Below are positions 1 to 29,997 of a DNA stretch of 29,997 nt, piece after piece (within the stretch, counting starts at the first letter, position 1; each line of letters starts with the position of its first letter). Location: positions 1 through 29,997 of the IMG/VR virus record IMGVR_UViG_3300005581_000084; one strand, written 5' to 3'. Made by a program: the position numbers and the translations under genes. The notes under the pieces are model-generated. The model searched no databases, had not been told where the DNA came from, and saw only the letters and a list, made by a program, of their open reading frames with translations. Source of the stretch: a virus.

Positions 1-238
1 ACCTCACTATACGGGTTGAAGTTTTCTATTTCGTATTCTCTACAATTACATCCCGTTGGTGATGGTGTTGGTGTTGGTGTAGGAGTTTTTGTTGGTGTGG
101 GGGTTGGTATATCCGCAGCACATTCCTCACAAGTTTCGTAGGTTATGGTTATATCATTCGTGTTTGAGTTGGTCGTAATATCGAAGACAAAATAACACGT
201 ATTTCCTCCGTTGGTTGTCCTTACCACTTGACCCAATG
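1..238. repeat. Terminal overlap, left copy
   Basis: Bases 1-238 align with 29760-29997 with no gaps and about 19 mismatches (about 8 percent). Thirteen of these fall in the 40 bases (51-90) coding for the Thr-Pro linker. Confidence 0.9.
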
Positions 239-2912: not shown

Positions 2913-4789
2913 TATAGGTTTGAGCGGTGTTGTTGAATTGGGTTATATTCGTATGTCAGAGTATATTGGAATACCTTATTGTATCTTTGTTTATATTCTT
3001 GTATTGAATTTGACGTAATTGTAACCGGTATTAGGTGGGGGGTTTTCGTGTATGACTCTGACGGAATTACCTCTGTATTATAGTAGAAGTCCTTCATCAA
3101 ATAAACGTGTGTTGATAGGAATAATTCCTCAACAATTTTTCGGTCGTTTTCCTCCATAAAATGACTCTGTGCTTCTACAACTTCTAATATGGTTTGGTCG
3201 TAGATAATATTTCTTTGACTATTGAATAGGGGGTTGTATATCGAGTTGTTTTTTATCAGTCCTTGAGCATATACCGAGTTTTCCTTATTATAGGTTTTGA
3301 TATTTTTTCTGTCGAAGGTCCATACGTCCCAAACTCCGTTCTGGTTGAGGAATAAAAAGTGTTGTGGGTCTGATATACATTCGTTACCATAAACTTGATA
3401 TACGACCCCCTCAGTTATTCTACGGGTATAATTCACTTGTCCCCCCGTCGATCCTGTTGTTTCAAGGTAAAACCCAAAGTCGTTACCAGATAGGTCTCTT
3501 TGGTCCCCAAATCCGTAGGGTGTCCAGACTTTATACATTATCCTATTGTCGGGTGTGGAACTTGTATATGTCCCGTGTATTGAAGTATCAAAAAATGATA
3601 ATAAATTTGACCCTGTTTTTCCTTTGAATGTATCTGAGTTTGTTCCGAGTGGTATTGTCTGAAAGTCCTTGTAAAAGAACGATATTACCATAGGACATTC
3701 CCAGTGGTGACTTCGTTTTCTACATTGTATCGTGGTCGTTCCTATGGTTGGTGCTGAGAATGTGTAGGGGAAATATTCATCTGAAAATGTGGTAAGAAAT
3801 TGTGCAGGAGTATCCCCTGAAATATTCGTATAGGTCTGCCACTCATATCGGTATTTATCCCACCATAGGTGGTTGTTTTCTCCGTTTGTATTTCCTGTCC
3901 CCCACCACGAGTTGTTGTAGTTGTTTATCTTTTTATTCTGTTGGACACCGGGCCATATCGTTATAACTTGGGGGTTATCCTCACACGCAGGACAGAATTC
4001 GGATATAAATACCCATCCTGGCACTTCGGTTTCGTCTGACCATTGGAATGAAAAACGACATTCTGAATAGTTTTCAGTAATGGTGAGAATATCGTTCCTT
4101 CCTGGTTCGGTCGTTGCGGTGTATGACCCTGTTTGTGCGGTAGTTGTTCCTGATGCAACAAATGTTCCCGTATTGGTCTGTTGTAGATAGGTCCACCCTA
4201 AAAGGTTCGTGTTAGCGTAGTCGGGTAGTGCGGCTCCCGCTCCTGTTATATTGACTCTGTTCGGTGAACCTGCATAGGGTAGTGCTGCAGTATCGAGTGA
4301 GTAATTCCACTCGGATGGTATTATTTGTGGTTCGTCACAAATGTCCGTTATTATCGTTCCTCCACTTGTTTGGTATTCCTCTCCAACCAAGACACGATAT
4401 TCCGCCACGTGTGGTAAAAATGGATATGTGGGGTTTGTATTGAATTGGTTAGATGGTTGTAGAGTGTATAAAGAAAATGGTATCTGTCCGTTGGGGTTCG
4501 AGAGAGATGAATAATTCATCGCTCCGTCTTTTAGTTGGCTCAAACTACTTCTCGTATTTGGTTTTGTGTAGTTTTTTACAATATCTCCAACATCCACTAT
4601 TCCCACTCCGTATGAGTTAGGTGCAACTTTTACTCTGGCAATTCTCTCGGGGGTTGTAAATGGGTTTATCCATATATCGAATACGTATCTCATCGAGGTA
4701 TTTCCCGATAAGGTAGAGGATGCGTTGTAAATATGCTGCGCGTTGGAGGGGGTGTAGTTGAGTGGTTGTTGGTTTATAGTTATACTCAT
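2912..4789 (-). CDS. Tail protein, probable baseplate/distal tail component
   Basis: This 625-aa frame starts with ATG overlapping the previous stop as ATGA (4786-4789), which points to translational coupling. The N-terminus (MSITINQQPLNYTPSNAQHI) is followed by a sequence rich in Thr, Asn, Tyr and Trp, as expected for beta-rich tail proteins. Around the middle is a patch with several cysteines (EFCPACEDNPQ and a CRKRSHHWEC segment) that could bind a metal or form disulphides. There is no signal peptide or membrane segment. It lies between the gp10-like joining protein and the large baseplate-like protein, a place that in Bacteroidota siphophages holds baseplate or distal tail proteins. No catalytic motif was seen. 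The structural role is inferred from context; the exact family is not recognised. Confidence 0.75.
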   Translation of the reverse strand: MSITINQQPLNYTPSNAQHIYNASSTLSGNTSMRYVFDIWINPFTTPERIARVKVAPNSYGVGIVDVGDIVKNYTKPNTRSSLSQLKDGAMNYSSLSNPNGQIPFSLYTLQPSNQFNTNPTYPFLPHVAEYRVLVGEEYQTSGGTIITDICDEPQIIPSEWNYSLDTAALPYAGSPNRVNITGAGAALPDYANTNLLGWTYLQQTNTGTFVASGTTTAQTGSYTATTEPGRNDILTITENYSECRFSFQWSDETEVPGWVFISEFCPACEDNPQVITIWPGVQQNKKINNYNNSWWGTGNTNGENNHLWWDKYRYEWQTYTNISGDTPAQFLTTFSDEYFPYTFSAPTIGTTTIQCRKRSHHWECPMVISFFYKDFQTIPLGTNSDTFKGKTGSNLLSFFDTSIHGTYTSSTPDNRIMYKVWTPYGFGDQRDLSGNDFGFYLETTGSTGGQVNYTRRITEGVVYQVYGNECISDPQHFLFLNQNGVWDVWTFDRKNIKTYNKENSVYAQGLIKNNSIYNPLFNSQRNIIYDQTILEVVEAQSHFMEENDRKIVEELFLSTHVYLMKDFYYNTEVIPSESYTKTPHLIPVTITSNSIQEYKQRYNKVFQYTLTYEYNPIQQHRSNL

Positions 4790-5334
4790 TTCGATGGTAT
4801 ATTTTTTTCGAGTAGTTTGTCGAAGAAGTCGTTTATTGTTCCCGCTATCATCTCGTCCGCTTCGGCTTCAAATTGAGCCTCCAATGAGAGAATTGCATTG
4901 TCGTAGAAAAAGGTCGGTGCGATACCATATCTTTTTATGTTCGTTGATATTCCGAACGCAGCCCCTCTTGGGTTAGGGAACCCTTTTGTTCGTGCCCACT
5001 CCTCGAGGGGGGATATAGGGACGTATTTTCCCCTTTGTCGTCCGTAGTTGACGTATTCCCAATAGTCCAACATTAGGAGTTCGAATCCGTCGGGGGTTAC
5101 CTTCCCTTCAATGGACTCGTATAACTTGTTTCCTATTGGTGACTTTACAAAGTTTCCCGAGTATCTTTTGTTCCTTACTCGTCCGTCTATTTCCTCCGAG
5201 TATGCGTCCCCCTCTCCGTCTCCCTGTTTGTTTATTCCAGGTGCTGCGAAGTATGCCATATTGAGTCGGGTTCGTAATTCTTTTACGAACCTCTGACCCC
5301 ATAGGTTTAGGAAGTTTTCGAACTCGGGTTCCAC
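4786..5334 (-). CDS. HK97 gp10-like head-tail joining / tail completion protein
   Basis: This is a 182-aa frame. The first usable codon is GTG at 5334, two bases after the stop of the fibre gene (TAA at 5339-5337); the first in-frame ATG would be residue 25 or so (MAYFAAPG), so the exact start is uncertain. The C-terminal half has the pattern of small neck or joining proteins: an aromatic-rich WEYVNYGRQRGKYVP segment, then EEWARTKGF and a GISTNIKRYGIAP segment, ending in an acidic helix. The family links head and tail or completes the tail. Its stop overlaps the next start as ATGA. Assignment rests on sequence feel, length and neighbours; a minor tail protein is the main alternative. Confidence 0.6.
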   Translation of the reverse strand: MEPEFENFLNLWGQRFVKELRTRLNMAYFAAPGINKQGDGEGDAYSEEIDGRVRNKRYSGNFVKSPIGNKLYESIEGKVTPDGFELLMLDYWEYVNYGRQRGKYVPISPLEEWARTKGFPNPRGAAFGISTNIKRYGIAPTFFYDNAILSLEAQFEAEADEMIAGTINDFFDKLLEKNIPSK

Positions 5335-5336
5335 GT

Positions 5337-7667
5337 TTAGACTGGTAAGAAGTTTAGGTGTTCATCAAGATAGATATTCCCGTCAATTATGGTTCCGTAG
5401 TATAAAGTTCGTGCGTTGTTGGTGGGGTTTGGAACTCCTCCACCTTTTGTATAGACGACACCACCGGTTATGAAGATATCTGTTAGGGTGTTAGTTCCGT
5501 TGTTGTATACCACGAATTGAATGGTCTGACCCTCACGAGCGTTTATGAATGTCGGTTCTGTGTTTCCTGTTAGTTCGAACTTGTAGATGGTTCCTTGTGA
5601 TAGGTCCACATTTATAGAACCTGAAACCGCTCCTCCGTTTATGACCTTGAATGACTCAGTTTTGAAGGTGTGTTGGTTTTCAAAGTGTGAGGTATTATCA
5701 AATTGAGCGGTCTGACCAAATGTCCCCAACATAACTGCGTTGGTCTTATTTGAAATGGTAGACCCTGAACCTGCGATGATGGTTGAGTTTTCAGAAATTG
5801 AGTTGATGGTATGACCCATACCTCCGATAATTTCACTTCGTGATGAGTCATATATTTTTCCATTATTAGAGTTGGTGATGTAGTTGTAGTTTCTTGAAGC
5901 ACCGGTAATTTGTGCGTTATCACTTTGTAAAATGTAGTGGTCCGAACCTCCATCACAGGTGATGAGTGATGAATTGGAATTGTCAATAAAACAAGAAGTC
6001 ACTGCGTTACCATTTATCGTAGAGGATATTGAATTGTAAATACCCGCATCGACAATATTTCCTGTTGAGGTTATAGTTGATGAGTTTGAGTAGTGTATCA
6101 TCGCATCCTGAACTTCCACGCCACTAATATTTGATGTTAGTGCTCCGAGTAGGGAGTTTCTCAATGTGGTTGAGGTTCCTATGATGTCACCATCGTCTGT
6201 AGCAATAATGTGGTTGTATGCGGTATCGGCAGAACTCGAGTTTGTAATATTACAATCCTTGGCTCCCACCATAGTATTATATCTCCCTCGTGCGGAAGTC
6301 AATGTTTTTGATAGGGTAATATCACTTCCCGATGATGCGATAGTTGAGTTGAATCCACCACCGATAATTTTATTATCCCCACTTCCTATGATTGATGAAT
6401 GGTCTGAGGTATCCAAAAGGTTATCAAAACCGCCAGCCATAAACCCGCCTTCTAAAGTTCGAATAATGCTACTTGATTGACCTATTATAACGTTTCTGTT
6501 ATCCCCTCCGTCGTGTAAAATTTCGCAAGCCGCAGACGCCATAATAACATTATTCTGTGCGGCATCTATACCTGATATTTTACTCGTGTTTGATGCGATA
6601 ATGGTTGACTTATTTACCCCACTTCCTGATAACACGTTTCCATCCCCTCCGATGATATTAGAGAATTCTCCGCTCCCTCCGATGTTGTTAGCGTAACCAA
6701 ATAATATACCTGATTGTCTCATATCAGCGGTGTAGGTATTACCCTCCCCTGCGATAATTGTGTTTTTGATATAAGAACCAATGTTATTGGATTCACCGCC
6801 AGCAATGAAGTTATTACTTCCACCCCCAATTATGTTACCACGTCCTGCGACAATGGCACCATTTTCACCCCATTGAATGTCGTTATTTATACCCCCTCCA
6901 ATGAAGTTGTTATATTCTCCCTGTATCGTGTTGTTTTGTCCCGCCACAATTCCTGCATGAGCACCACCGGTAATATTATGTAGGTGTCCATTTAGAATGG
7001 TGTTGTAGTTACCCGCACCACTCTCAATTCTATTTTGGTATCCTCCGTAAATGGTATTACCCGATGCGGTTGACTGAACCTCGTTGTCGAATCCTGCGAT
7101 GGATGCTCCATAGGGTGAGTCCATTTCTGCTGCTGTGTCGTATTTGTTGATAACCGAATTGAGTCCAGTTCCCGTGATAAACATTGAGTCACCGCTCGTT
7201 CCCGAAGTTCCTGATGAACCTGAACTTCCGCTTGAACCTGAACTTCCGCTCGTTCCGTTTATTCCTGATGAACCGGAACTTCCACTCGAACCTGACGTTC
7301 CTGATAAACCGGAACTTCCGCTTGAGCCCGAACTTCCGCTTGATCCCGAACTTCCACTTGAGCCCGAACTTCCGCTTGAGCCCGAACTTCCGCTCGTTCC
7401 GTTTATTCCTGACGTTCCGCTCGAACCTGACGTTCCTGATGAACCCGAACTTCCGCTCGTTCCACTGACTCCTGAACTTCCGCTTGAACCTGATGTTCCG
7501 CTTGAACCTGATGTTCCGCTGGTTCCCGAACCTGAGGTTCCTCCACTCATTACGAGGTTTGTTTTTATTTTATATGTTGTTGTTTCTCCCGAGTTGTTGA
7601 ATACGAGGTATCCGTCTGTTGGGTTTCCGTAGAACTCAGGTAGTTGACTAATTTTTAGGTTTGACAT
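5337..7667 (-). CDS. Tail fibre-like protein: collagen-like Gly-X-Y stretch plus YadA-like beta-helix
   Basis: This 776-aa protein has three parts. Residues 1-45 form a short N-terminal anchor (MSNLKISQLPEFYGNPTDGY). Residues about 46-155 are Gly-X-Y triplets almost wholly of Gly, Ser and Thr with a few Asn-Ile or Leu positions, collagen-like but without proline. From about residue 165 to 690, repeats of the type NNTIQGEYNNFIGGG and SNNFIAGGESNNIG look like the left-handed roll or trimeric beta-helix of YadA-type head domains. The last 75 residues form a small beta domain. Such trimeric architecture is typical of phage fibres or receptor-binding proteins. The gene lies between the tail-terminator-like gene and the gp10-like gene. 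The leader before ATG is A-rich. The exact adhesion target is unknown. Confidence 0.8.
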   Translation of the reverse strand: MSNLKISQLPEFYGNPTDGYLVFNNSGETTTYKIKTNLVMSGGTSGSGTSGTSGSSGTSGSSGSSGVSGTSGSSGSSGTSGSSGTSGINGTSGSSGSSGSSGSSGSSGSSGSSGSSGSSGLSGTSGSSGSSGSSGINGTSGSSGSSGSSGSSGTSGTSGDSMFITGTGLNSVINKYDTAAEMDSPYGASIAGFDNEVQSTASGNTIYGGYQNRIESGAGNYNTILNGHLHNITGGAHAGIVAGQNNTIQGEYNNFIGGGINNDIQWGENGAIVAGRGNIIGGGSNNFIAGGESNNIGSYIKNTIIAGEGNTYTADMRQSGILFGYANNIGGSGEFSNIIGGDGNVLSGSGVNKSTIIASNTSKISGIDAAQNNVIMASAACEILHDGGDNRNVIIGQSSSIIRTLEGGFMAGGFDNLLDTSDHSSIIGSGDNKIIGGGFNSTIASSGSDITLSKTLTSARGRYNTMVGAKDCNITNSSSADTAYNHIIATDDGDIIGTSTTLRNSLLGALTSNISGVEVQDAMIHYSNSSTITSTGNIVDAGIYNSISSTINGNAVTSCFIDNSNSSLITCDGGSDHYILQSDNAQITGASRNYNYITNSNNGKIYDSSRSEIIGGMGHTINSISENSTIIAGSGSTISNKTNAVMLGTFGQTAQFDNTSHFENQHTFKTESFKVINGGAVSGSINVDLSQGTIYKFELTGNTEPTFINAREGQTIQFVVYNNGTNTLTDIFITGGVVYTKGGGVPNPTNNARTLYYGTIIDGNIYLDEHLNFLPV
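7195..7550 (-). repeat. Degenerate tandem repeat encoding Gly-Ser-Ser/Thr triplets
   Basis: Within the fibre gene, 9-base units (on the plus strand of the type GAACTTCCG / CTTGAACCT) recur about forty times with point changes, encoding the Gly-X-Y stretch. The unit length is a multiple of three, so copy-number change by slippage or unequal recombination would keep the frame and alter fibre stalk length. Confidence 0.85.
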
Positions 7668-12520: not shown

Positions 12521-12739
12521 TTATTTTAGTTTTCCGTTTAGTAATTTATACCATAGGTATTTACCCCTAATATCATCGGGGGTGGGGACTTCTTTCCACC
12601 TATGCTCTTTTTTTATCTTGGTGATGTTGGGTCTCGAGGTATCAAAGTATTCAGCAATTTCGTGGTGTTTGTATATCCTCGTTGATAGTAGATGTTTGAT
12701 AAGTTCCACCTTCTCATCGTTTAGTTTTTGTTTACCCAT
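12521..12739 (-). CDS. Small helix-turn-helix DNA-binding protein
   Basis: This 72-aa protein starts MGKQKLNDEKVELIKHLLST. A clear HTH spans about residues 9-45: EKVELIKHLL, HHEIAEYFDTSRPNITKIKK, followed by HRWKEV. That last pattern resembles the HTH modules attached to HNH/NUMOD homing endonucleases, but no nuclease is present. It overlaps the sigma-like gene by 19 bases and stops one base before the methyltransferase start. It may be a regulator working with the sigma factor. Confidence 0.75.
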   Translation of the reverse strand: MGKQKLNDEKVELIKHLLSTRIYKHHEIAEYFDTSRPNITKIKKEHRWKEVPTPDDIRGKYLWYKLLNGKLK

Positions 12740-13215
12740 AGTTTTATTAGTTTTTGTTTGGTTTCGTTTATGTATCTCCCCACCGAGTTCAGGGGTATAG
12801 TTGTCTTTTTACTGACTTGGGTTAGTGTCCCAAGTTCCAACCACATTATGAATAGGTCCTTCTCAAACCACGATAGGTTCTCTAATTGACAATAAACCCA
12901 TCCGAGTTCTGCGGGTTCCATATATGGTTCGTCCATTTGTTCGTGTATTTCAGGGTTGTAGTCGGTTTGTTTGTCTTGGTATTTCTTATTCTCGTAGTAG
13001 TATTTTGAGGTCTTGGAGTAGTAGTTGTTTTTTAGGGTTCGTATAAAAAAATACTTTCGTCTATCGGGGGGGACTTCCCGTATCTGTTTGTTTTGTAGTA
13101 GTTGTTCCATTACCGATTGGAATAGGTCGTCTGCGTCCGCTTGATGTTTGACGATATTTTTGGTGGTATTATAAAGGTCTTTATAGTTCCTATTTATCCA
13201 CTCGTTCATATCCAT
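12721..13215 (-). CDS. ECF-like sigma-70 family factor
   Basis: This 164-aa protein has the two-domain layout of ECF sigma factors. Residues 10-75 look like region 2 (ADADDLFQSVMEQLLQN, then YFFIRTLKNNYYSKTSKYYY). Residues 105-160 look like region 4 with a C-terminal HTH (DLFIMWLELGTLTQVSKKTT, then PLNSVGRYINETKQKL). Similar proteins are found in Bacteroidota phages and are presumed to direct host RNA polymerase to phage promoters. It is the first gene of the block that leads into packaging and, in a circular map, all virion genes. A second Met at residue 3 is an alternative start. It has its own terminator-isolated leader with a possible promoter at 13250-13279. Confidence 0.75.
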   Translation of the reverse strand: MDMNEWINRNYKDLYNTTKNIVKHQADADDLFQSVMEQLLQNKQIREVPPDRRKYFFIRTLKNNYYSKTSKYYYENKKYQDKQTDYNPEIHEQMDEPYMEPAELGWVYCQLENLSWFEKDLFIMWLELGTLTQVSKKTTIPLNSVGRYINETKQKLIKLWVNKN

Positions 13216-13363: not shown

Positions 13364-13594
13364 TTATTTTTTGTATTTTTCTTTTATATGTTGTTGAGCC
13401 TTATTCAGGGACTCTTTGATGGTATCGTTTGTTTTATGTTTTACACACACTACCAGTAGGTCTGTTATTCTTACGAGGTCCTCGAGGTCGGGACATATTC
13501 CACACATTTCGAAGTATTTGTGAGCCAAGTGACTCTGGTTTTGATACATTATTCTGTCCTCGTTGGGTCTTGTTTCTAAAGTTGTTGTTGCCAT
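13364..13594 (-). CDS. Hypothetical 76-aa protein, monocistronic
   Basis: The protein starts MATTTLETRPNEDRIMYQNQ and is mostly helical, with a CGICPDLEDLVRITDLLVVC segment and a basic C-terminal helix. It has its own promoter at 13631-13660 and a strong terminator downstream, so it is expressed alone. The leader before ATG is very A-rich, typical of Bacteroidota translation signals. Function is unknown; the isolated transcription unit in the regulatory region suggests an early role. Confidence 0.7.
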   Translation of the reverse strand: MATTTLETRPNEDRIMYQNQSHLAHKYFEMCGICPDLEDLVRITDLLVVCVKHKTNDTIKESLNKAQQHIKEKYKK

Positions 13595-13630
13595 TTTTTT
13601 TTTGTTTTTGTTTAGTTTATTTGTCTATTA

Positions 13631-14540: not shown

Positions 14541-14571
14541 TAAATATATGACGAATTATTTTATCAACCAA
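14541..14571 (-). promoter_or_regulatory. Leftward promoter, -33 box overlapping the rightward promoter
   Basis: On the minus strand TTG (14571-14569), 20 bases, then TATATTTA (14548-14541). The -33 region lies in the inverted repeat CAACCAAGTTG (14565-14575), which also carries the -33 box of the rightward promoter. It drives the operon 14511 to 13665. Confidence 0.65.
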
Positions 14572-14603
14572 GTTGTGGGGGAACTTTTTTTGTTATATCT
14601 TTG
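14572..14603 (+). promoter_or_regulatory. Rightward promoter (GTTG-N20-TATCTTTG)
   Basis: GTTG at 14572-14575, 20 bases, then TATCTTTG at 14596-14603, an exact match to the Bacteroidota -7 form TAnnTTTG. Transcription would start about 14608-14612, which sets the start of the 73-aa gene at the ATG at 14632 and excludes the upstream ATG at 14548. Confidence 0.75.
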
Positions 14604-14607
14604 TCGT

Positions 14608-14627
14608 GTTGAACCTCTAACCTCTTT
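14608..14627 (+). repeat. Leader repeat, copy 1
   Basis: GTTGAACCTCTAACCTCTTT forms the expected 5' leader of the 73-aa gene and recurs exactly at 15223-15242. It holds two tandem AACCTCT units. Its place four bases after the -7 box in both copies suggests an operator or RNA-level control element. Confidence 0.8.
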
Positions 14628-14631
14628 TATT

Positions 14632-14853
14632 ATGGAACAGAAAATTTCTTTCACTTTCACCCCCAAGTCAGTATCCCGCCACTTTGGAACGACTGAAGAG
14701 TTCGTCTCTGAATATTGGGATGTTTTTGAAGGTTGGTTGTCTAACCACATTCACAACAATTTGGGTGAGATCTGGTGGGAGGACTACGATGAGCTCCTCG
14801 AGTCCATCAATGAATGTCTTGATGAAGAAATTTCTGAATTCCCTTCAGTATAA
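14632..14853 (+). CDS. Hypothetical 73-aa acidic protein, rightward cassette gene 1
   Basis: The start is set by the promoter at 14572-14603: the first ATG in the transcript is at 14632, giving MEQKISFTFTPKSVSRHFGT. The rest is strongly acidic with several Trp and ends SEFPSV. The TAA stop merges into the -33 box of the next promoter. Codon choice favours C-ending codons more than the leftward genes nearby. Small acidic early proteins in phages often bind host proteins or mimic DNA; nothing here proves that. Confidence 0.75.
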   Translation: MEQKISFTFTPKSVSRHFGTTEEFVSEYWDVFEGWLSNHIHNNLGEIWWEDYDELLESINECLDEEISEFPSV

Positions 14854-14885
14854 TTTGTGGGATTCATTCCTTTTACTTACCTTTG
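14854..14885 (+). promoter_or_regulatory. Rightward promoter (TTTG-N20-TACCTTTG)
   Basis: TTTG at 14854-14857, directly after the TAA of the previous gene, 20 bases, then TACCTTTG at 14878-14885. Both boxes and spacing match the Bacteroidota consensus. The leader that follows is related to, but diverged from, the repeat in front of the other two cassette genes. Confidence 0.8.
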
Positions 14886-14916
14886 TCCTGTCTAACAATC
14901 CAAAACCCTTTTTACT

Positions 14917-15186
14917 ATGTCACTTACCAAGTCCCTACCTATCTCCCTTCTGAAGACCATCTCTGATAAAAACTATGAGTCAGGTCGTCCTGTTCACACC
15001 ATCGACTTCGACTCTATGTTGGAGGAGTATCCCTCTCTTGAGTCCCTCGAGTTGTTGGGTATCGTCAACCACCGAGATCGTGGTTGCGAGGCTCACTTCA
15101 AAAGCCCGAAGGGTGGTATTATGTGGTTACGTCTCGGACTGACCAAAGGTCAACTGAAGAAAGTTCAGTCAGTTGTCGGTATCTAA
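14917..15186 (+). CDS. Hypothetical 89-aa protein, rightward cassette gene 2
   Basis: The protein starts MSLTKSLPISLLKTISDKNY and ends in a short basic helix (TKGQLKKVQSVVGI). A segment near residue 60 (RDRGCEAHFKSPKGGIMWLR) looks like a beta hairpin. It has its own promoter 32 bases upstream, and its stop runs into the next promoter. No family was recognised. Confidence 0.75.
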   Translation: MSLTKSLPISLLKTISDKNYESGRPVHTIDFDSMLEEYPSLESLELLGIVNHRDRGCEAHFKSPKGGIMWLRLGLTKGQLKKVQSVVGI

Positions 15187-15218
15187 TTTGTGTATTCCAA
15201 ATATCCAACGTATCTTTG
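15187..15218 (+). promoter_or_regulatory. Rightward promoter (TTTG-N20-TATCTTTG)
   Basis: TTTG at 15187-15190 follows the TAA of the 89-aa gene directly, then 20 bases, then TATCTTTG at 15211-15218: a textbook Bacteroidota promoter. From the -7 box onward, 30 of 32 bases equal the promoter-leader at 14596-14627. Confidence 0.85.
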
Positions 15219-15222
15219 TTGA

Positions 15223-15242
15223 GTTGAACCTCTAACCTCTTT
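15223..15242 (+). repeat. Leader repeat, copy 2
   Basis: Exact second copy of GTTGAACCTCTAACCTCTTT, again four bases after the -7 box and just before the ATG (15249). Confidence 0.85.
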
Positions 15243-15248
15243 ATCACG

Positions 15249-15503
15249 ATGAAAAACTACACCTCCCTCCGTCAAGTTACCGAAGCCTACAAGTCGGGTG
15301 AACTTATGTCGTCTTATACCTTCACCTTCAAGGGTTTCCATTGTTGGTGGGGTGGATATGACCTCCGTGATGGTGTTGTTGAGTGTTCCTTCAACCGACT
15401 TCGTTGTGACCCATCCACCGATGCTCAGTATAAGGACTTTGATCGTCTGTCTCGACTCGATGTTTTCTGTCGTAATTACGCTGTGGACGTGGACCTCTCC
15501 TAA
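15249..15503 (+). CDS. Hypothetical 84-aa protein, rightward cassette gene 3
   Basis: The protein starts MKNYTSLRQVTEAYKSGELM, has an aromatic core (FKGFHCWWGGYDLRDGVVEC) and ends in an acidic tail. Four cysteines are spread along it. The gene has its own promoter and the repeated leader, and is followed by a strong terminator. No family was recognised. Confidence 0.75.
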   Translation: MKNYTSLRQVTEAYKSGELMSSYTFTFKGFHCWWGGYDLRDGVVECSFNRLRCDPSTDAQYKDFDRLSRLDVFCRNYAVDVDLS

Positions 15504-15832: not shown

Positions 15833-16163
15833 AATAAACTATATGGTCTGTTATCATATCGATAAATTGATGAACTTCCTGTTCTGGTTTTCCATCGAAT
15901 GTTGGATATGCATATAGAAAGTTTCCCATTTTGTATTTGTTATTGAGAATATAATTTGACTGATATAGGTCGTAAATTGTATCGACGAAATATACATCAA
16001 GTAGTTCCCTTTTTTGTCTCACGACCATTGAGTATCCGAGTTCGTCCTCCTCTACAAATTCCATAGTCAGTCCGTTCGGTGCGTGTAGTGATAGTTTAGT
16101 GAGGTATTGAAATATTTCTTGCCTGTTCCAAGTTTTGTAGTCGAATTCTTTTACTAAGTTCAT
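15825..16163 (-). CDS. Hypothetical 112-aa protein
   Basis: The protein starts MNLVKEFDYKTWNRQEIFQY. It has a helical N-terminus, a beta middle (LTMEFVEEDELGYSMVVRQK) and an acidic C-terminus. Its first 68 bases overlap the end of the 127-aa gene in another frame, a long overlap for this genome. An internal start is possible: the next Met is at about residue 34. Function is unknown. Confidence 0.6.
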   Translation of the reverse strand: MNLVKEFDYKTWNRQEIFQYLTKLSLHAPNGLTMEFVEEDELGYSMVVRQKRELLDVYFVDTIYDLYQSNYILNNKYKMGNFLYAYPTFDGKPEQEVHQFIDMITDHIVYYE

Positions 16164-16479
16164 AAAGTTCTATTAGTTCGTTTTTATACATTTTTATCAA
16201 TATCATATCCTTACTATTTCGTTGGAAGAATATATTTTGGTTTATTAGTTCCACCTCGAGTATGCCTTCGGTGTTGGTCTCTTTTATGAAGAGTTGGGAG
16301 TTATTCTTGAACGCATCGACTATTTGTCGTCTGGTAAAGAATATTCCGTCTTGAAATAATTCCTTATCTATCATTATGAGTTCCATATCATCGATGTAAA
16401 TCCCAAAGGATGTTTTGAGTCCAACTTTATTGAGGTTACTGAATACTTGGAATAGTTTTTCGAGTCTGGTTTTTTTCAT
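16096..16479 (-). CDS. Hypothetical 127-aa protein
   Basis: The protein starts MKKTRLEKLFQVFSNLNKVG, followed by strand-rich segments (TSFGIYIDDMELIMI) and a C-terminal helix rich in Leu and Glu. No known motif was seen. The gene follows the 184-aa gene after about 11 bases and overlaps the 112-aa gene by 68 bases. Confidence 0.65.
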   Translation of the reverse strand: MKKTRLEKLFQVFSNLNKVGLKTSFGIYIDDMELIMIDKELFQDGIFFTRRQIVDAFKNNSQLFIKETNTEGILEVELINQNIFFQRNSKDMILIKMYKNELIELYELSKRIRLQNLEQARNISIPH

Positions 16480-16490
16480 ATTGATAAATA

Positions 16491-17045
16491 TTACTTTTTG
16501 TTTTTTTGTAATTCCTTGAGTCGTTGGTTACGTTCCTGTTCTGTTACCTCTGTTGGTTTTAGTTGGAGTAATGGTTCGAGTAATTTTTCTATTGGAATGG
16601 TATATCCTTTATTTGTATCGTTGGTTCCATTGAGTTTGTAGGTTGTTATATCCAAAACCCATCCTTCCTCAAGTCCTTTATCGATTATTTCTTTGAGGTA
16701 TTTGGTTTTTACCATTATCGTTATAGGACCTATTTTCCCGTCGTTTTGGAGTATGGGTAGTATGTAGGTATCACTTTTGGTAGAAGATATCCCAGAAGGT
16801 CTGAAAACGTCCCATTCGGGTTTTTTCATTGAGTATTCTATGAATACATTTCCGTATTGTCTTACACTCGGTTCTAATTGGACTTTTATCTCCGCTGTTT
16901 TTATTGAGTCATCTATCTCTTGTTCGAATTGAGTGAAGCTTGAATAAACATCTCCTCTGTTTTTTATATCCTTGAGTAATTTTTCAAGTCGTTTGTTCTC
17001 GATGGTTATATCGTATTCCGTTGAGGTTTTATTTTTATTTTTCAT
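16491..17045 (-). CDS. Hypothetical 184-aa protein
   Basis: Two starts are possible: ATG at 17060 (MGDRVMKNKN) or ATG at 17045. The second forms an exact ATGA overlap with the stop of the DUF6291-like gene (17042-17044), the junction used throughout this genome, so 17045 is preferred. The protein is lysine-rich with a coiled N-terminal third (IENKRLEKLLKDIKNRGDVY), a strand-rich centre and a basic tail (NQRLKELQKNKK). The composition would suit nucleic-acid binding, but no domain was recognised. It lies between the DUF6291-like gene and small unknown genes. Confidence 0.65.
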   Translation of the reverse strand: MKNKNKTSTEYDITIENKRLEKLLKDIKNRGDVYSSFTQFEQEIDDSIKTAEIKVQLEPSVRQYGNVFIEYSMKKPEWDVFRPSGISSTKSDTYILPILQNDGKIGPITIMVKTKYLKEIIDKGLEEGWVLDITTYKLNGTNDTNKGYTIPIEKLLEPLLQLKPTEVTEQERNQRLKELQKNKK

Positions 17046-17575
17046 AACTCTATCCCCCATTTCTTTTTAGCAACTTCTTGAAGTTCCTTGAGAGCTTGTT
17101 TTTGTTCCTCGTCTGTAAAAGTATCCTGTATGTGGTTGTAAGAAATTTCCGTAGAACTTCTGATAGAACTTCTATTATAATTATTTGGAAAAATTATTTG
17201 TTCAATAATTTTTCCATTATTAGTTCTATTATTATTACTTACTTTTTCTTTTTCTTTTACTTGCTCTTGCTCTTGCTCTTGCTCTTGTTGGTAAGGGGGT
17301 TGGTATCCCCCTTCCTTACCCCCTTCGGTAGGGGGTTCGATAGGGTCTCTTTTTTCTCCTATTTTGGTCTTGGTTTTATCCTCGTATCCCTTTACTTGTT
17401 GGTCGACGAGGAACTTCCAAGAACCCCATATTATTTGACTTATCCCCTCAAGTTGAGGTTCCGTTCCGTTGAATTGTCTTTCAAGGAGAGCGTCCATTAT
17501 TTGGACTTTGGTCTTATCATCGAGTAGTTTGTATGTCTCGTAATATGACCTGTAAAAACTGAAGGCTTTACGCAT
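17042..17575 (-). CDS. DUF6291-like protein, head of a five-gene operon
   Basis: This 177-aa protein has an N-terminal half (MRKAFSFYRSYYETYKLLDD, then a WGSWKFLVDQQVKGYEDKTK helix) that fits the DUF6291 pattern seen in many phages next to replication genes. A Gln-Glu repeat (four copies of a six-base unit) and a Pro/Gly-rich linker join it to a C-terminal helical part (DEEQKQALKELQEVAKKKWG). In related phages such proteins are thought to take part in replication initiation, like DnaD-type proteins; here that is only inference. It follows the promoter at 17632-17660 and couples to the next gene by ATGA. Confidence 0.7.
   Translation of the reverse strand: MRKAFSFYRSYYETYKLLDDKTKVQIMDALLERQFNGTEPQLEGISQIIWGSWKFLVDQQVKGYEDKTKTKIGEKRDPIEPPTEGGKEGGYQPPYQQEQEQEQEQVKEKEKVSNNNRTNNGKIIEQIIFPNNYNRSSIRSSTEISYNHIQDTFTDEEQKQALKELQEVAKKKWGIEL
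17261..17287 (-). repeat. Six-base tandem repeat encoding Gln-Glu
   Basis: Four copies of TTGCTC on the plus strand encode an alternating Gln-Glu run in the DUF6291-like protein. Copy-number change would keep the frame and change linker length. Confidence 0.85.
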
Positions 17576-17631
17576 TTTTTATTTTTTTTTTAGGTAGTGG
17601 TTTCCCACCGGTTTATGTGCCATTTCAAACG

Positions 17632-17660
17632 TAAATATAGTCGAGAACCGGAAAAGTCAA
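17632..17660 (-). promoter_or_regulatory. Promoter for the DUF6291-like operon
   Basis: On the minus strand GTTGAC has TTG at 17660-17658, then 18 bases, then TATATTTA (17639-17632), followed by ACGTTTG. The same -7 box is used at 13631, 14541 and 17832. Confidence 0.55.
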
Positions 17661-17673
17661 CTCGGTGGGTGAA

Positions 17674-17703
17674 TAAAAAAACCCCCCTTTTTCAAGGAGG
17701 GTT
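17674..17703 (-). terminator. Strong terminator at the end of the late block / small RNA
   Basis: On the minus strand AACCCTCCTT (17703-17694), a four-base loop GAAA, and AAGGGGGGTT (17689-17680) form a ten-pair stem with one G-U pair, followed by seven T. It would stop leftward transcription from the head genes and end the small RNA candidate. Confidence 0.9.
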
Positions 17704-17825
17704 ATAGTTAGGGGGGAGAGGACTTCGGTGGACCCAAAAAAGAGTAAGACAAATAAACCCTGTAAACCCCAACCGAGTCATAAATGGCTGAACTCCCCCC
17801 CTTGTAATTTTTTTGTTTTCGTGTA
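17675..17825 (-). ncRNA. Candidate structured small RNA, about 150 nt
   Basis: A leftward promoter (TTG, 19 bases, TATATTTA at 17861-17832) and the strong terminator at 17674-17703 bracket about 150 bases with no leftward gene. Within it GGGGGGAG (17800-17793) can pair with CTCCCCCC (17718-17711). Inside that stem, GACTCGGT/GG (from 17779) can pair with CC/ACCGAAGTC (ending 17721), ten pairs with one bulge on each side. Nested stems plus own promoter and terminator are the layout of a bacterial or phage small RNA. The inner loop is large and A/U-rich. It could instead be only the structured end of the late mRNA. No known RNA family was recognised. Confidence 0.45.
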
Positions 17826-17831
17826 TAGTTA

Positions 17832-17861
17832 TAAATATAAACTTTTTATCTTTTTCGTCAA
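17832..17861 (-). promoter_or_regulatory. Leftward promoter for small RNA candidate
   Basis: On the minus strand TTG (17861-17859) within TTGAC, 19 bases, then TATATTTA (17839-17832). It matches the other leftward promoters. The -33 box touches the start codon of the rightward zinc-ribbon gene. Confidence 0.5.
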
Positions 17862-17862
17862 T

Positions 17863-18129
17863 ATGGATGAACGTCGTATTTGTAAAATTTGTGGTAATTC
17901 TTTCTACGTAGGAATCCGTGCTCGATGGGTATGCTCCTCCTGTAGTCAAAGAAGTGCTATTGTTGTCGGAAAAACTCGTCTCAAGGACCTACATTATCCT
18001 AATAATTTATCTAAGCAGAACGATGTCAATTCCGCTCGTGAGTTATTGAATGACTTGGGTTATAATGTTGAGGGGGACGTTCATCAGCAATTTTTGGAAC
18101 GTTGTCGTAGTCGTGGAATTATTTTTTGA
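17863..18129 (+). CDS. Zinc-ribbon protein, 88 aa
   Basis: The likely start is ATG at 17863 (MDERRICKICGNSFYVGIRA), since the open frame upstream runs through the terminator and the structured RNA region. CKIC and CSSC form two cysteine knuckles (residues 7-10 and 24-27), a small zinc ribbon, followed by a basic stretch and an acidic helical C-terminus ending RSRGIIF. It may bind nucleic acid. It lies alone on the plus strand, facing the late block, and its end overlaps the end of the 56-aa gene by 11 bases. An AT-rich tract (TATAAATATA) just upstream may include its promoter, with TTTG at 17812-17815. Confidence 0.75.
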   Translation: MDERRICKICGNSFYVGIRARWVCSSCSQRSAIVVGKTRLKDLHYPNNLSKQNDVNSARELLNDLGYNVEGDVHQQFLERCRSRGIIF

Positions 18130-18289
18130 CTCGTTTTAGGTCACGAATAATTCTCATTTGTTTTTCTCTCCAACGTCCATAACACACCGCCATCGCTTGG
18201 TTCGATGGGAACTCGTCTTTGGTTACTTCATAACATCGGTTGATGTATTCTCTTTGGGTTTCACTATTTCTTGGGATTGGTAGAGGCAT
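18119..18289 (-). CDS. Short 56-aa protein of a common phage type
   Basis: ATG at 18289 and TAA at 18121-18119 give MPLPIPRNSETQREYINRCY, then a middle with EFPSNQAMAVCYGRW and a basic tail ending RDLKRVKK. The layout (MPLP start, a Cys before the middle, EFP..QA.AVCY..W) is one I know from short phage proteins encoded beside structural genes or fused to head proteins; their function is unknown. It overlaps the 94-aa gene by 26 bases and is the last gene of the late block before the terminator at 17674-17703. Confidence 0.7.
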   Translation of the reverse strand: MPLPIPRNSETQREYINRCYEVTKDEFPSNQAMAVCYGRWREKQMRIIRDLKRVKK

Positions 18290-18548
18290 CGTGTTCCTTC
18301 ATTAGTTTTTTTAGTTCGTGGTTTTCCTCAAGGAGGGTTCCAACTTTTTTCTCGAGGGCATCTATTTTTACGTTCAAGGACCTTATCTCCTCCTTCATAT
18401 CATCGATGATGGTTTGATAGATATTGATACTTTTTTCCAAATTGAGTAGAAGGACACTTTCGGTCTCTGCTCGTCCTTTTCTTATCCCAAGTAGGAATGT
18501 TACAAACCCTGTAATTGAGGTCATTAGGAGTGAGATAAATGGTTCCAT
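18264..18548 (-). CDS. Membrane-anchored coiled-coil protein, holin- or spanin-like
   Basis: This 94-aa protein has one N-terminal membrane segment (residues 3-22, FISLLMTSITGFVTFLLG) followed by a basic stretch and a long coiled coil (SLNVKIDALEKKVGTLLEEN). This layout fits small holin-like or spanin-like phage proteins, or a membrane-bound accessory. No lysis enzyme is encoded next to it, so the lysis role is only a guess. It lies at the end of the head operon. Confidence 0.65.
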   Translation of the reverse strand: MEPFISLLMTSITGFVTFLLGIRKGRAETESVLLLNLEKSINIYQTIIDDMKEEIRSLNVKIDALEKKVGTLLEENHELKKLMKEHDASTNPKK

Positions 18549-18570
18549 TTCGTTTTACTTTTCGATAGTT

Positions 18571-18600
18571 GTTGATGAGGCTTGATGAGGTTTGATGATG
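18571..18600. repeat. Three 10-bp direct repeats (TTGATGAGG-like)
   Basis: GTTGATGAGG, CTTGATGAGG and TTTGATGATG lie head to tail in the short gap between the connector gene and the coiled-coil gene. One helical turn per unit suggests a protein-binding site such as an operator or small iteron. Confidence 0.7.
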
Positions 18601-18612
18601 CTCACTACTTAT

Positions 18613-19215
18613 TTACCATCCATCACAGCAGTAGTCAGGGTCTGTTCGGTCGGTGTATGAAGGAAGACCTGGATATCCTCCTCCGAAACGTGGAAGTCGT
18701 CTCCTTCCTGTATCGATGTAAATTCCTGAATAATAATTTTCCTTCGCTGGTCTCATTCCATCGATTGTGGAGTATGAGAAGTAGAGTGGGTAGTCACCAG
18801 GATGGTTTTGTATCCAATCCATCATTCTCTGAGCGTAGAACTCGTATCTTGCTTCGTGGATGTTACGTAGGTAGGTTAGGTTTCCCTTATCTACGGGTTG
18901 TCCCTGTTCGGTCTGTCCTATAATGACGGACTTGTTCATTACCCTCATCCATAGGGTCGGTAATGACTCCCAAGTGGCTCTCCATAGGAGATATGGTTGT
19001 ATGTAGTCCTGTAATAGTGTTAGGTCTGGACCCGATAGGGTGTTGTTTTGTGCTCCGTTGAGGATGTAATTGTAGAAGGATGTTCCGAGTAAATTTTGGA
19101 GTCCCAAGTCCTGAGCAATTTGAACCCCCGCCAATAATAATTTCTCATCGACGTTATCATTTATTTCGGTGAACGCCTTTATTTTTTGAGCACTGACTAA
19201 TAAAACCGCTGCCAT
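18613..19215 (-). CDS. DUF6712-like head-tail connector protein
   Basis: This 200-aa protein starts MAAVLLVSAQKIKAFTEIND and is largely helical up to about residue 140 (GVQIAQDLGLQNLLGTSFYN; DYIQPYLLWRATWESLPTLW), then has a Gly/Pro-rich tail with CCDGW at the end. The helical pattern and its place directly after the portal gene fit the DUF6712 family of Bacteroidota phages, presumed head-tail connectors. It starts one base after the portal stop, implying coupled expression. The C-terminal Gly-Tyr-Pro-rich tail is unusual. Confidence 0.65.
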   Translation of the reverse strand: MAAVLLVSAQKIKAFTEINDNVDEKLLLAGVQIAQDLGLQNLLGTSFYNYILNGAQNNTLSGPDLTLLQDYIQPYLLWRATWESLPTLWMRVMNKSVIIGQTEQGQPVDKGNLTYLRNIHEARYEFYAQRMMDWIQNHPGDYPLYFSYSTIDGMRPAKENYYSGIYIDTGRRRLPRFGGGYPGLPSYTDRTDPDYCCDGW

Positions 19216-19216
19216 T

Positions 19217-20347
19217 TTATTGAGGTGTATTTGGTAGTTCGGGGGTTATGGACTCTACTGGATTAGTATCAAAAATTTCGTTTTGAATTATCTCCAATTT
19301 GTGTAGTTTTTTGTCCCTCAAGAATAGTAATTTCTCGAATTGTTCTAATAGTTGGTCCTGTAATGGAACGATTGTAGTTCGTAGGAAGTGTTCGTATCCC
19401 TCAACGACTTCGTTTTTGGACCCAAGTTGTCCTGGTGTTTCTATTCCCAAAAGTTTTGGGGATGTTATTCTATGACCGGTTAGAATCGTGTTCCTCACAA
19501 TTTCATCCATATCTCTATAAAATTGGTCAGAGTTATTTAGGTTGAGTGGTGTAATGGTTGGTTCGTGTTCCTTGTCCTCTGCGAAGTTTAGGAATAGTCC
19601 CCCTGCGTTATTCGTTGATGAGTATTTGTCCATCAGGTGTCTGTATACCTGACTTCTCTCCTCCTCTGATGGAATACCATTATTCAAGGAAATAAAAATT
19701 GACGGGAAGAATCCGTTTTGTAAGTTTTGTAGGTGGAAGTTTTTGATGTTGATATCAATTTCCGTGGCAACCCTACTTCCTATCCACTCTGGCATCGGAT
19801 AGTATGTTTGGTTAGGTGCGTATCCCATATACCAATAAATTTGAGAGGGGTCCTCATCATTCAGGTCAAATGCAGGTATGCTGAAGGGTTTGTATTTCCT
19901 CTCATTTCTCCAATCAGCACTATACCAATATTCCTGAACAAAGTCACGATAATCGACTTTTCCTGAACGTAGTTTAGATAGGTCCATGTGATACATTTCT
20001 GATATTCCGTCTCCCATCTTATTTTTTACCACGTTGAGTGCGAATCCGTTATGGATAACAAAGTCCATTGCGGTCTTTTTATAAATTTCCCTCAATGAGT
20101 TCATTCCGTTGACCATATAAAGGGTTGAGTCCTGTCCGTCTATTAGGAGTTTTTCACCCCAAACAGCATCTCGTTTTGCATTTAGACAGGCTCTGTTGAT
20201 AGCGGAATAATTGTATAGGTCGATGGAGTGACTGGGCCATAAATTATCCCCACCCCAAAGTATCCATTCCTTGTTAGTTATGGTCTCCTCGAAGGTTGGT
20301 AGGTTCACCACCTCAAAGTCGAGTTTGAATAAATTATCCCTGTTCAT
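19217..20347 (-). CDS. Portal protein
   Basis: This 376-aa protein has features of compact phage portals: an N-terminal ILWGGDNLWPSHSIDLYNYS segment, the clip or stem region with many helices, and a C-terminal helical region (SKNEVVEGYEHFLRTTIVPL then QDQLLEQFEKLLFLRDKKLH) seen in PBSX/HK97-type portals of Bacteroidota phages. The portal forms the DNA channel at the capsid vertex and docks TerL. It heads the connector genes and has the conserved late element 28 bases upstream of the start. Confidence 0.8.
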   Translation of the reverse strand: MNRDNLFKLDFEVVNLPTFEETITNKEWILWGGDNLWPSHSIDLYNYSAINRACLNAKRDAVWGEKLLIDGQDSTLYMVNGMNSLREIYKKTAMDFVIHNGFALNVVKNKMGDGISEMYHMDLSKLRSGKVDYRDFVQEYWYSADWRNERKYKPFSIPAFDLNDEDPSQIYWYMGYAPNQTYYPMPEWIGSRVATEIDINIKNFHLQNLQNGFFPSIFISLNNGIPSEEERSQVYRHLMDKYSSTNNAGGLFLNFAEDKEHEPTITPLNLNNSDQFYRDMDEIVRNTILTGHRITSPKLLGIETPGQLGSKNEVVEGYEHFLRTTIVPLQDQLLEQFEKLLFLRDKKLHKLEIIQNEIFDTNPVESITPELPNTPQ

Positions 20348-29092: not shown

Positions 29093-29997
29093 TTATTCTA
29101 TACAGGGTCCGTTATCCACCACCTCAATGTTTGGGTTTTCTATTATTGTTCCCTCACAAGCGCAGTCCTGAATAAATGAGTCACCACCTATTATTGGGTC
29201 CTGTTCATTTCCATCGCAGTCCGTGTATGTTATGGTCTGTGGTAGGAAAGATAAGTTTGTAAATTCGTAGTCGATACACTCACAAAGTGGGGGTGTCGGT
29301 GTTGGAGTTTTCGTCGGTGTTCTCGTCGGTGATGGACTTGGAACTGAACAACACGATAGTTTGGTTATCACCACTTCCAAGTTCATCGTCGTCACGGAGT
29401 TATTACACGCACATATCGTTATGGTCTGACCTGGTATAATTGTATAGGTAGTTGGTGACCCTACGCATCCCCCACATAAAAGTGCGTCATAGTCGAGTAA
29501 TTGGTCCTCCGAGTTGTTAGTTATTTGGTAGTTATAACACGCACAATTCGATGGTGTCGGACTCGGTGTCCTCGTAGGTGTTGGTGTTATTGTCCTCGTT
29601 GGAGTCACCGCTGGTGTTGTCTCTATACAGGTTCCCAAGTCCCTTCCACTCACGCCTGCTGGTGTTATAAGTGACCCCTCACATAGGCAGTCAACAATAA
29701 AACTATAAGCCCCTATGGTTGGTGTCCTATGAACACCGAAGCAGTCGTCGTATTCTACCACCTCACTATACGGGTTGAAGTTTTCTATTTCGTATTCTCT
29801 ACAATTACAAGGTGTTTTAGATGGTGTCGGTGTTGGAGTTTGAGTTCTCGTTGGTGTGGGGGTTGGTATATCCGCAGCACATTCCTCACAACTTTCGTAG
29901 GTTATGGTTATATCATTCGTGTTGGAATTCGTCGTTATATCGAATACAAAATAACACGTATTTCCTCCGTTGGTTGTCCTTACCACTTGACCCAATG
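29093..29997 (-). CDS. C-terminal part of the baseplate-like protein: Cys modules on Thr-Pro linkers
   Basis: The frame is open at the right window edge and ends at 29093, showing about 300 residues. No true start is visible: the codon at 29995 is TTG inside the coding frame. The visible part begins with a beta domain (GQVVRTTNGGNTCYFVFDIT), then four Cys-containing segments separated by Thr-Pro linkers: CEECAADIP; CNCREYEIENFNPYSEVVEY; CACYNYQITN; CECIDYEFTNLSF. Each repeats a pattern of paired Cys, a short strand and a D.C.G-type turn. The first parts match the left-end gene in bases 1-238, so it most likely is the rest of that gene. The modules may be disulphide-bonded tail-tip domains. 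It ends 26 bases before the tape measure start. Confidence 0.75.
   Translation of the reverse strand, partial: LGQVVRTTNGGNTCYFVFDITTNSNTNDITITYESCEECAADIPTPTPTRTQTPTPTPSKTPCNCREYEIENFNPYSEVVEYDDCFGVHRTPTIGAYSFIVDCLCEGSLITPAGVSGRDLGTCIETTPAVTPTRTITPTPTRTPSPTPSNCACYNYQITNNSEDQLLDYDALLCGGCVGSPTTYTIIPGQTITICACNNSVTTMNLEVVITKLSCCSVPSPSPTRTPTKTPTPTPPLCECIDYEFTNLSFLPQTITYTDCDGNEQDPIIGGDSFIQDCACEGTIIENPNIEVVDNGPCIE
29760..29997. repeat. Terminal overlap, right copy
   Basis: Right-hand partner of bases 1-238. The first 50 bases are identical, the next 40 differ at 13 positions, and the last 148 differ at 6, mostly at silent positions. Confidence 0.9.

Follow-up and report, generated by a model that had tools for sequence, protein, structure and literature searches.

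A predicted small RNA with loops complementary to the start of an early gene in related uncultured phages

The locus and its transcription signals

The window, that is, the whole stretch of 29,997 nucleotides analysed here, comes from an IMG/VR virus record and carries the genome of a tailed phage, portal and terminase genes included, with nearly all genes running leftward. The C-terminal repeats of the ORF at 3-2912 recur in the ORF at 29093-29995 (window 1-2912 / 29093-29997), which suggests that the genome is nearly complete and circularly permuted, the overlap being a variant one. The early region, otherwise leftward, is broken by three small rightward ORFs at 14548-15503. A 287-bp gap separates the leftward gene 17042-17575 from the rightward gene of a zinc-ribbon protein (17863-18129, plus strand). 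The RNA unit lies inside this gap, divergent from the zinc-ribbon gene, which is its syntenic neighbour in the window's clade.

The first-pass annotation of this DNA had placed a leftward promoter, TTG-N19-TATATTTA, ahead of a strong terminator, with no leftward gene between them. The promoter is present at 17861-17832 (minus strand), with TTG at 17861-17859 as the −33 element, a 19-nt spacer and TATATTTA at 17839-17832 as the −7 box, and a transcript start is predicted at about 17825. At 17703-17673 (minus strand) lies an intrinsic terminator of 10 pairs with a loop of 4, followed by a T-run, which would form the RNA 3′ end and is the strongest leftward one in the scanned range 16000-20000. 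ORF inspection revealed no credible leftward gene between promoter and terminator. The same annotation had held the −7 box to be that of the leftward gene promoters. It occurs six times in the window, always on the minus strand (2.3 expected), and four of these copies stand directly upstream of leftward genes.

The predicted small RNA is about 150 nt long (17673-17825, minus strand). Its fold comprises a 9-pair outer stem, an inner helix and the terminator (−49 kcal/mol; z = −2.1 versus dinucleotide shuffles). This energy by itself is only modestly unusual, and the real support for a structured RNA is the comparative data rather than the fold energy. In the closing stem, for which eight G/C pairs had been proposed, the 5′ arm GGGGGGGAG (17801-17793) pairs with the 3′ arm at 17718-17710, and the equivalent stem covaries in the family described below. 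The bulged inner stem is likewise recovered (17779-17721); this helix has no counterpart outside the window and its close relative L024, which are identical in it. Two segments of the fold are exposed: seed 1, GCCATTT (17782-17788, minus strand), in a single-stranded linker with an unpaired probability of 0.97, and seed 2, GTTTATTTGTCT (17747-17758, minus strand), mostly in the apical loop. Taken together, promoter, terminator, fold and comparative recurrence support the self-contained, structured small RNA of the earlier description, as a prediction.

No known RNA family had been recognised at this place, and searches of the window and nine relatives against Rfam release 15 agree, with no matches at the gathering threshold and, at relaxed thresholds, only weak sub-threshold matches, chiefly on the terminator end. 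BLASTN of the RNA region against cultured phages likewise returned no match.

A family of RNA units in related phages

Many related viruses share small RNAs of a group not described before, and the window RNA is one of them. About 30 related uncultured phages of Bacteroidota type carry the unit, mostly once per genome. It consists of a TTG-N19/20-TATATTTA promoter, a closing stem of 8-14 bp, a loop of about 45 nt and a T-rich end. The loops often contain TATTC and GCCAT. Scans that used the portal, its neighbouring 200-aa protein and an early gene of 74 aa brought in further phages. The unit of the sister group, whose portal is about 35-40% identical, lies 20-490 nt downstream of this early gene, often with separate terminators flanking it on both sides. 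A strict pattern scan gave 8 matches in 780 kb of strand and none in shuffled sequence, while a loose scan for the stem alone was uninformative (568 real versus 496 shuffled matches). The promoter is conserved: TTG stands 19 or 20 nt from the box in 18 of 33 members, compared with 0-2 members at every other spacing, and the window shows a spacing of 19 upstream of its stem.

The sequence of the closing stem varies between phages, yet its pairing persists. Compensatory changes in homologues had been named by the first-pass annotation as a check on both stems, and for the outer one the outcome is a strong success. In 32 aligned members 89.1% of the cells of an 11-pair stem are paired, versus 61.4% after shuffling, with 110 two-sided changes versus 38.5, seen in all 11 pairs, and a covariation score of 0.757 versus 0.258; slid stem controls gave 51-63% paired. 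Fitting the alignment to the structure tilts these figures towards it, but the margin remains large.

A covariance model, R1, was built from seven sister-group members. Searched over 100 sources, it scored 56 sites, usually one per genome, among them syntenic sites from the window's clade, none of which had served to build it (E = 0.001 in L119 and L035, 0.09 in L028, 0.13 in L029, 0.21 in L116 and 0.29 in L014). Sites adjoining the zinc-ribbon gene in this clade show a TATATT box, a G-rich/C-rich stem and a T-run. At 17673-17839 of the window neither of the family models, R1 and R2, finds a match, though the clade mates L119, L035, L028 and L029 score; the reason is a longer leader and loop, the leader from box to stem exceeding that of other members by about 22 nt. 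The window RNA is thus an enlarged, divergent copy whose membership rests on synteny and position, promoter, stem and target pairing. It adjoins the zinc-ribbon gene, as in the rest of its clade, and has a G/C-rich closing stem of 9 pairs followed by a canonical terminator.

Homologues of the zinc-ribbon gene adjoin the RNA in eight relatives (L014, L020, L024, L028, L029, L035, L119 and L122), and in L116 (4500-4967) gene and RNA are inverted jointly relative to the other phages, like one module. In contig 3300020172_003163 (L024/L040) the RNA region is kept nearly letter for letter as in the window, while the adjoining zinc-ribbon protein is only 47% identical. This difference is direct evidence of non-coding constraint.

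The region lies directly upstream of the zinc-ribbon gene and its complement also has inverted repeats, as would be expected of a 5′ leader of that rightward gene, folded on the other strand. However, every member has its promoter and T-run directed leftward, the zinc-ribbon gene is absent from the sister group and folding of the plus strand does not improve on shuffles (z = 0.15), a result on which the leader reading was dropped as extremely improbable.

The unit might also be a mere transcription boundary, a large-loop terminator or insulator that ends the late operon and has no action in trans. Its place at the late/early junction, the T-rich run that ends most members and the canonical terminator in the window fit such a role. 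Every unit, however, comes with a spaced promoter of its own and is often flanked by separate canonical terminators; the sister-group unit lies on the strand opposite the portal gene, and loops of about 45 nt are ill-suited to termination. Nor would a terminator explain the complementarity of the loops to one start codon, described below, and we regard this alternative as unlikely.

Two other non-coding elements were observed. At a comparable position, more distant phages show a gene-free stretch bounded by a TATATTTA box and a canonical terminator (L041, about 4300-4420), possibly a further derivative of the RNA. A second recurring element of about 200-250 nt (L014 ~3270-3560, L116 ~5080-5370, L119 ~5750-6000 and L043 ~6960-7240) has a TATATTTATT-like box upstream and shares GACACCTTT ... 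GTTGGTTCTTTTTGNGGGGG ... ACACCTTTTT; Rfam gave no match for it in L014, L116 or L119, and it looks like another phage RNA gene.

Complementarity between the loops and an early gene start

The complement of the loops resembles a Bacteroidota translation start, being A-rich and then reading ATGGC. Member sequences read by eye showed that it encodes no conserved peptide. Complementarity was first tested in the sister group with the adjacent gene alone; the outcome, P = 0.0012, prompted a test of all gene families. For 24 families, each present in at least 6 phages, duplex energies of the loops were compared between their own and other phages' start regions. Only one family, an early gene of 74-90 aa, reached 0 of 4000 permutations (kinship ignored), with −15.6 kcal/mol for cognate duplexes versus −11.6 for the others (n = 17); the next-best family gave P = 0.002. 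In a sliding scan of 28 phages the cognate excess (z = −4.4 to −5.2) was confined to windows centred −10 to +20 around the AUG, with none at −120 to −50 or +30 to +160. Restriction of the complementarity to the start codon of one gene is thus a computed result.

Among 23 representatives mean perfect runs were 8.6 versus 7.3 (P = 8e-5 by permutation, kinship ignored). In five phages of the window's clade, where the gene lies kilobases from the RNA, the true pairing was the best of all 120 permutations (kinship ignored). The seeds vary with the target: many phages have GCCAT facing ATGGC, the L034 genome has GCGTCCA facing TGGACGC, and L028 combines GTTTTCCAT with ATGGAAAAC and TCCTATTTTTT with AAAAAATAGGA. 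Ranked within single genomes, the early gene comes first or second in six (G002, G004, G005, G012, G014 and G015). Fit to this target is poor in L133 and L140, whose target starts with ATGTC, and in G008, G010 and G013, so additional or changed targets are likely for some family members. Targets beyond the early gene may include host mRNAs.

The predicted target in the window is the gene at 13364-13594 (minus strand), which encodes a 76-aa early protein of this '..QSQLK..' family. AlphaFold2 predicts three helices (pLDDT 85), and neither Foldseek against the PDB nor searches of Pfam and PHROGs gave a significant match for the protein. A TATATTTA promoter box lies at 13638-13631 (minus strand), and downstream of it the mRNA is predicted to begin at about GACAAATAAAC. 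The target region (13590-13626, minus strand) runs from the mRNA 5′ end, AGACAAATAAAC (13626-13615), to the start AAATGGC (13596-13590). Directly downstream of the predicted target is a gene (12721-13215) with a weak match to sigma-70 region 2 (Pfam E = 1.5e-4), behind its own terminator and TATATTTA box.

Seed 2 offers 12 contiguous Watson-Crick pairs with the 5′ UTR at the mRNA 5′ end, and seed 1 offers 7 pairs with AAATGGC across the AUG. Both seeds are unpaired in the RNA's own fold (0.80-0.97) and in the correct antiparallel order. The duplex reaches −27.3 kcal/mol, versus −11.3 (s.d. 2.8) for shuffled loops (z = −5.6). The target ranks 1st of 39 window genes if only accessible segments of the RNA are used and 27th of 39 if all loop bases are counted against start regions of −20 to +20. 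Within the window, the 11-mer GACAAATAAAC is found at two places only, the target and the complement of the RNA itself. It is retained as the mRNA 5′ end in the L006 contig, which is about 93% identical to the window and comes from the same sample as L024.

The first-pass annotation had left the choice between a regulatory RNA and a decoy. The conserved complementarity to one start codon speaks for the former, and a decoy is not needed to account for the data. A role in protein binding or as a decoy, with the zinc-ribbon protein next door as a possible partner, would agree with the constant company of that gene in the window's clade and their joint inversion in L116, but the sister group has the RNA without the gene, and stem sequence is unconstrained while loop sequence tracks the target. 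We hold it to be very unlikely.

A trans-acting repressor of an early gene

We propose that the unit encodes a trans-acting antisense small RNA, with its own promoter and terminator, that pairs with the start of the 13364-13594 mRNA and represses its translation, and we consider this probable. Transcription by host RNA polymerase from the Bacteroidota-type promoter to the terminator would yield a short and stable RNA, with the G/C stem closing it. The unpaired seeds held by this stem would then pair in trans with the 5′ end and the start codon of the mRNA. With the AUG covered, initiation would be blocked and the mRNA level probably lowered, placing the early gene under post-transcriptional control; the exposed loops would thus probably act as an off switch for it. 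From these computed features we infer that the RNA is transcribed and pairs in the cell, as well as the direction and timing of its effect.

Bacteroidota ribosomes work without Shine-Dalgarno pairing, and in Flavobacterium johnsoniae starts are kept unstructured from about −20 to +20 (PMC6847099). Since such mRNAs must keep the start region unpaired to be initiated, an RNA lying across the AUG should prevent initiation. In Bacteroides, which lacks an obvious Hfq or ProQ, the small RNA GibS binds mRNAs around the start codon (PMC7366714). Phages, too, are known to control translation initiation by antisense RNA, as in sar of P22 (PMC12197685). Given GibS, sar and starts lacking Shine-Dalgarno sequences, a stem-protected RNA with start-codon seeds is most simply read as a translational repressor. 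The RNA could instead activate the same target by protecting its 5′ end or opening a structure. The longest match in the window does lie at the very 5′ end of the mRNA, and pairing there can make a transcript more stable. However, in most phages the match covers the AUG, which should hinder ribosomes, and the target leaders are A-rich and little structured; activation rather than repression therefore seems improbable.

Of the known systems, GibS of Bacteroides thetaiotaomicron (PMC7366714) is alike in being intergenic, about 145 nt long, expressed from its own promoter and paired with start-codon regions of mRNAs; own promoter and start-codon pairing are found, by computation, in the window RNA too. 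GibS is host-encoded, with a largely unstructured 5′ seed and metabolic targets, whereas the window RNA is phage-encoded, keeps its seeds inside a closed hairpin and has a predicted phage target. P22 sar, described as the antisense RNA of ant (PMC12197685), is likewise a phage RNA that hinders translation initiation on a phage mRNA by base pairing. Unlike sar, the RNA of the window's clade is encoded kilobases from its target and pairs by short, imperfect matches. The lambda OOP RNA, too, is a short antisense RNA by which a phage acts on one of its own mRNAs, but it is antisense to cII, works through RNase III degradation (PMC12197685) and belongs to a temperate enterobacterial phage; Rfam detected no relation between it and the window RNA. 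The window RNA (17673-17825) and its target (13364-13594) lie on the same strand, so it is not a cis-antisense RNA of the sar or OOP type. For 24B_1, a small RNA of phage Phi24B, repression of the phage gene d_ant has likewise been proposed, but it is a 20-nt processed product helped by Hfq (PMC12197685), and the window RNA implies no such processing.

The hosts of this phage group are most likely Bacteroidota, judging from the promoter type and the nearest cultured phages, which by portal are the Nonlabens phages P12024S/L (26% identity). In P12024S, R1 gave only E = 1.6, at an ordinary terminator-like hairpin, and no prophage turned up in the bacterial and archaeal genomes searched with the portal. 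To our knowledge, most phage small RNAs so far described come from enterobacterial phages whose hosts contain Hfq, and small-RNA action has hardly been explored in the Bacteroidota, a phylum without Shine-Dalgarno sequences. If the proposal is true, a conserved small-RNA family with a conserved predicted target exists in uncultured phages of probable Bacteroidota hosts, and the '..QSQLK..' early genes gain a first regulatory lead, with a concrete seed/target pair. Going further, we raise only tentatively the idea of a deeply conserved riboregulator whose stem is free to change while its loop seeds co-evolve with an important early gene at its start codon, and which might serve as an early-gene timing switch, independent of Shine-Dalgarno sequences and Hfq, widespread in uncultured Bacteroidota phages.
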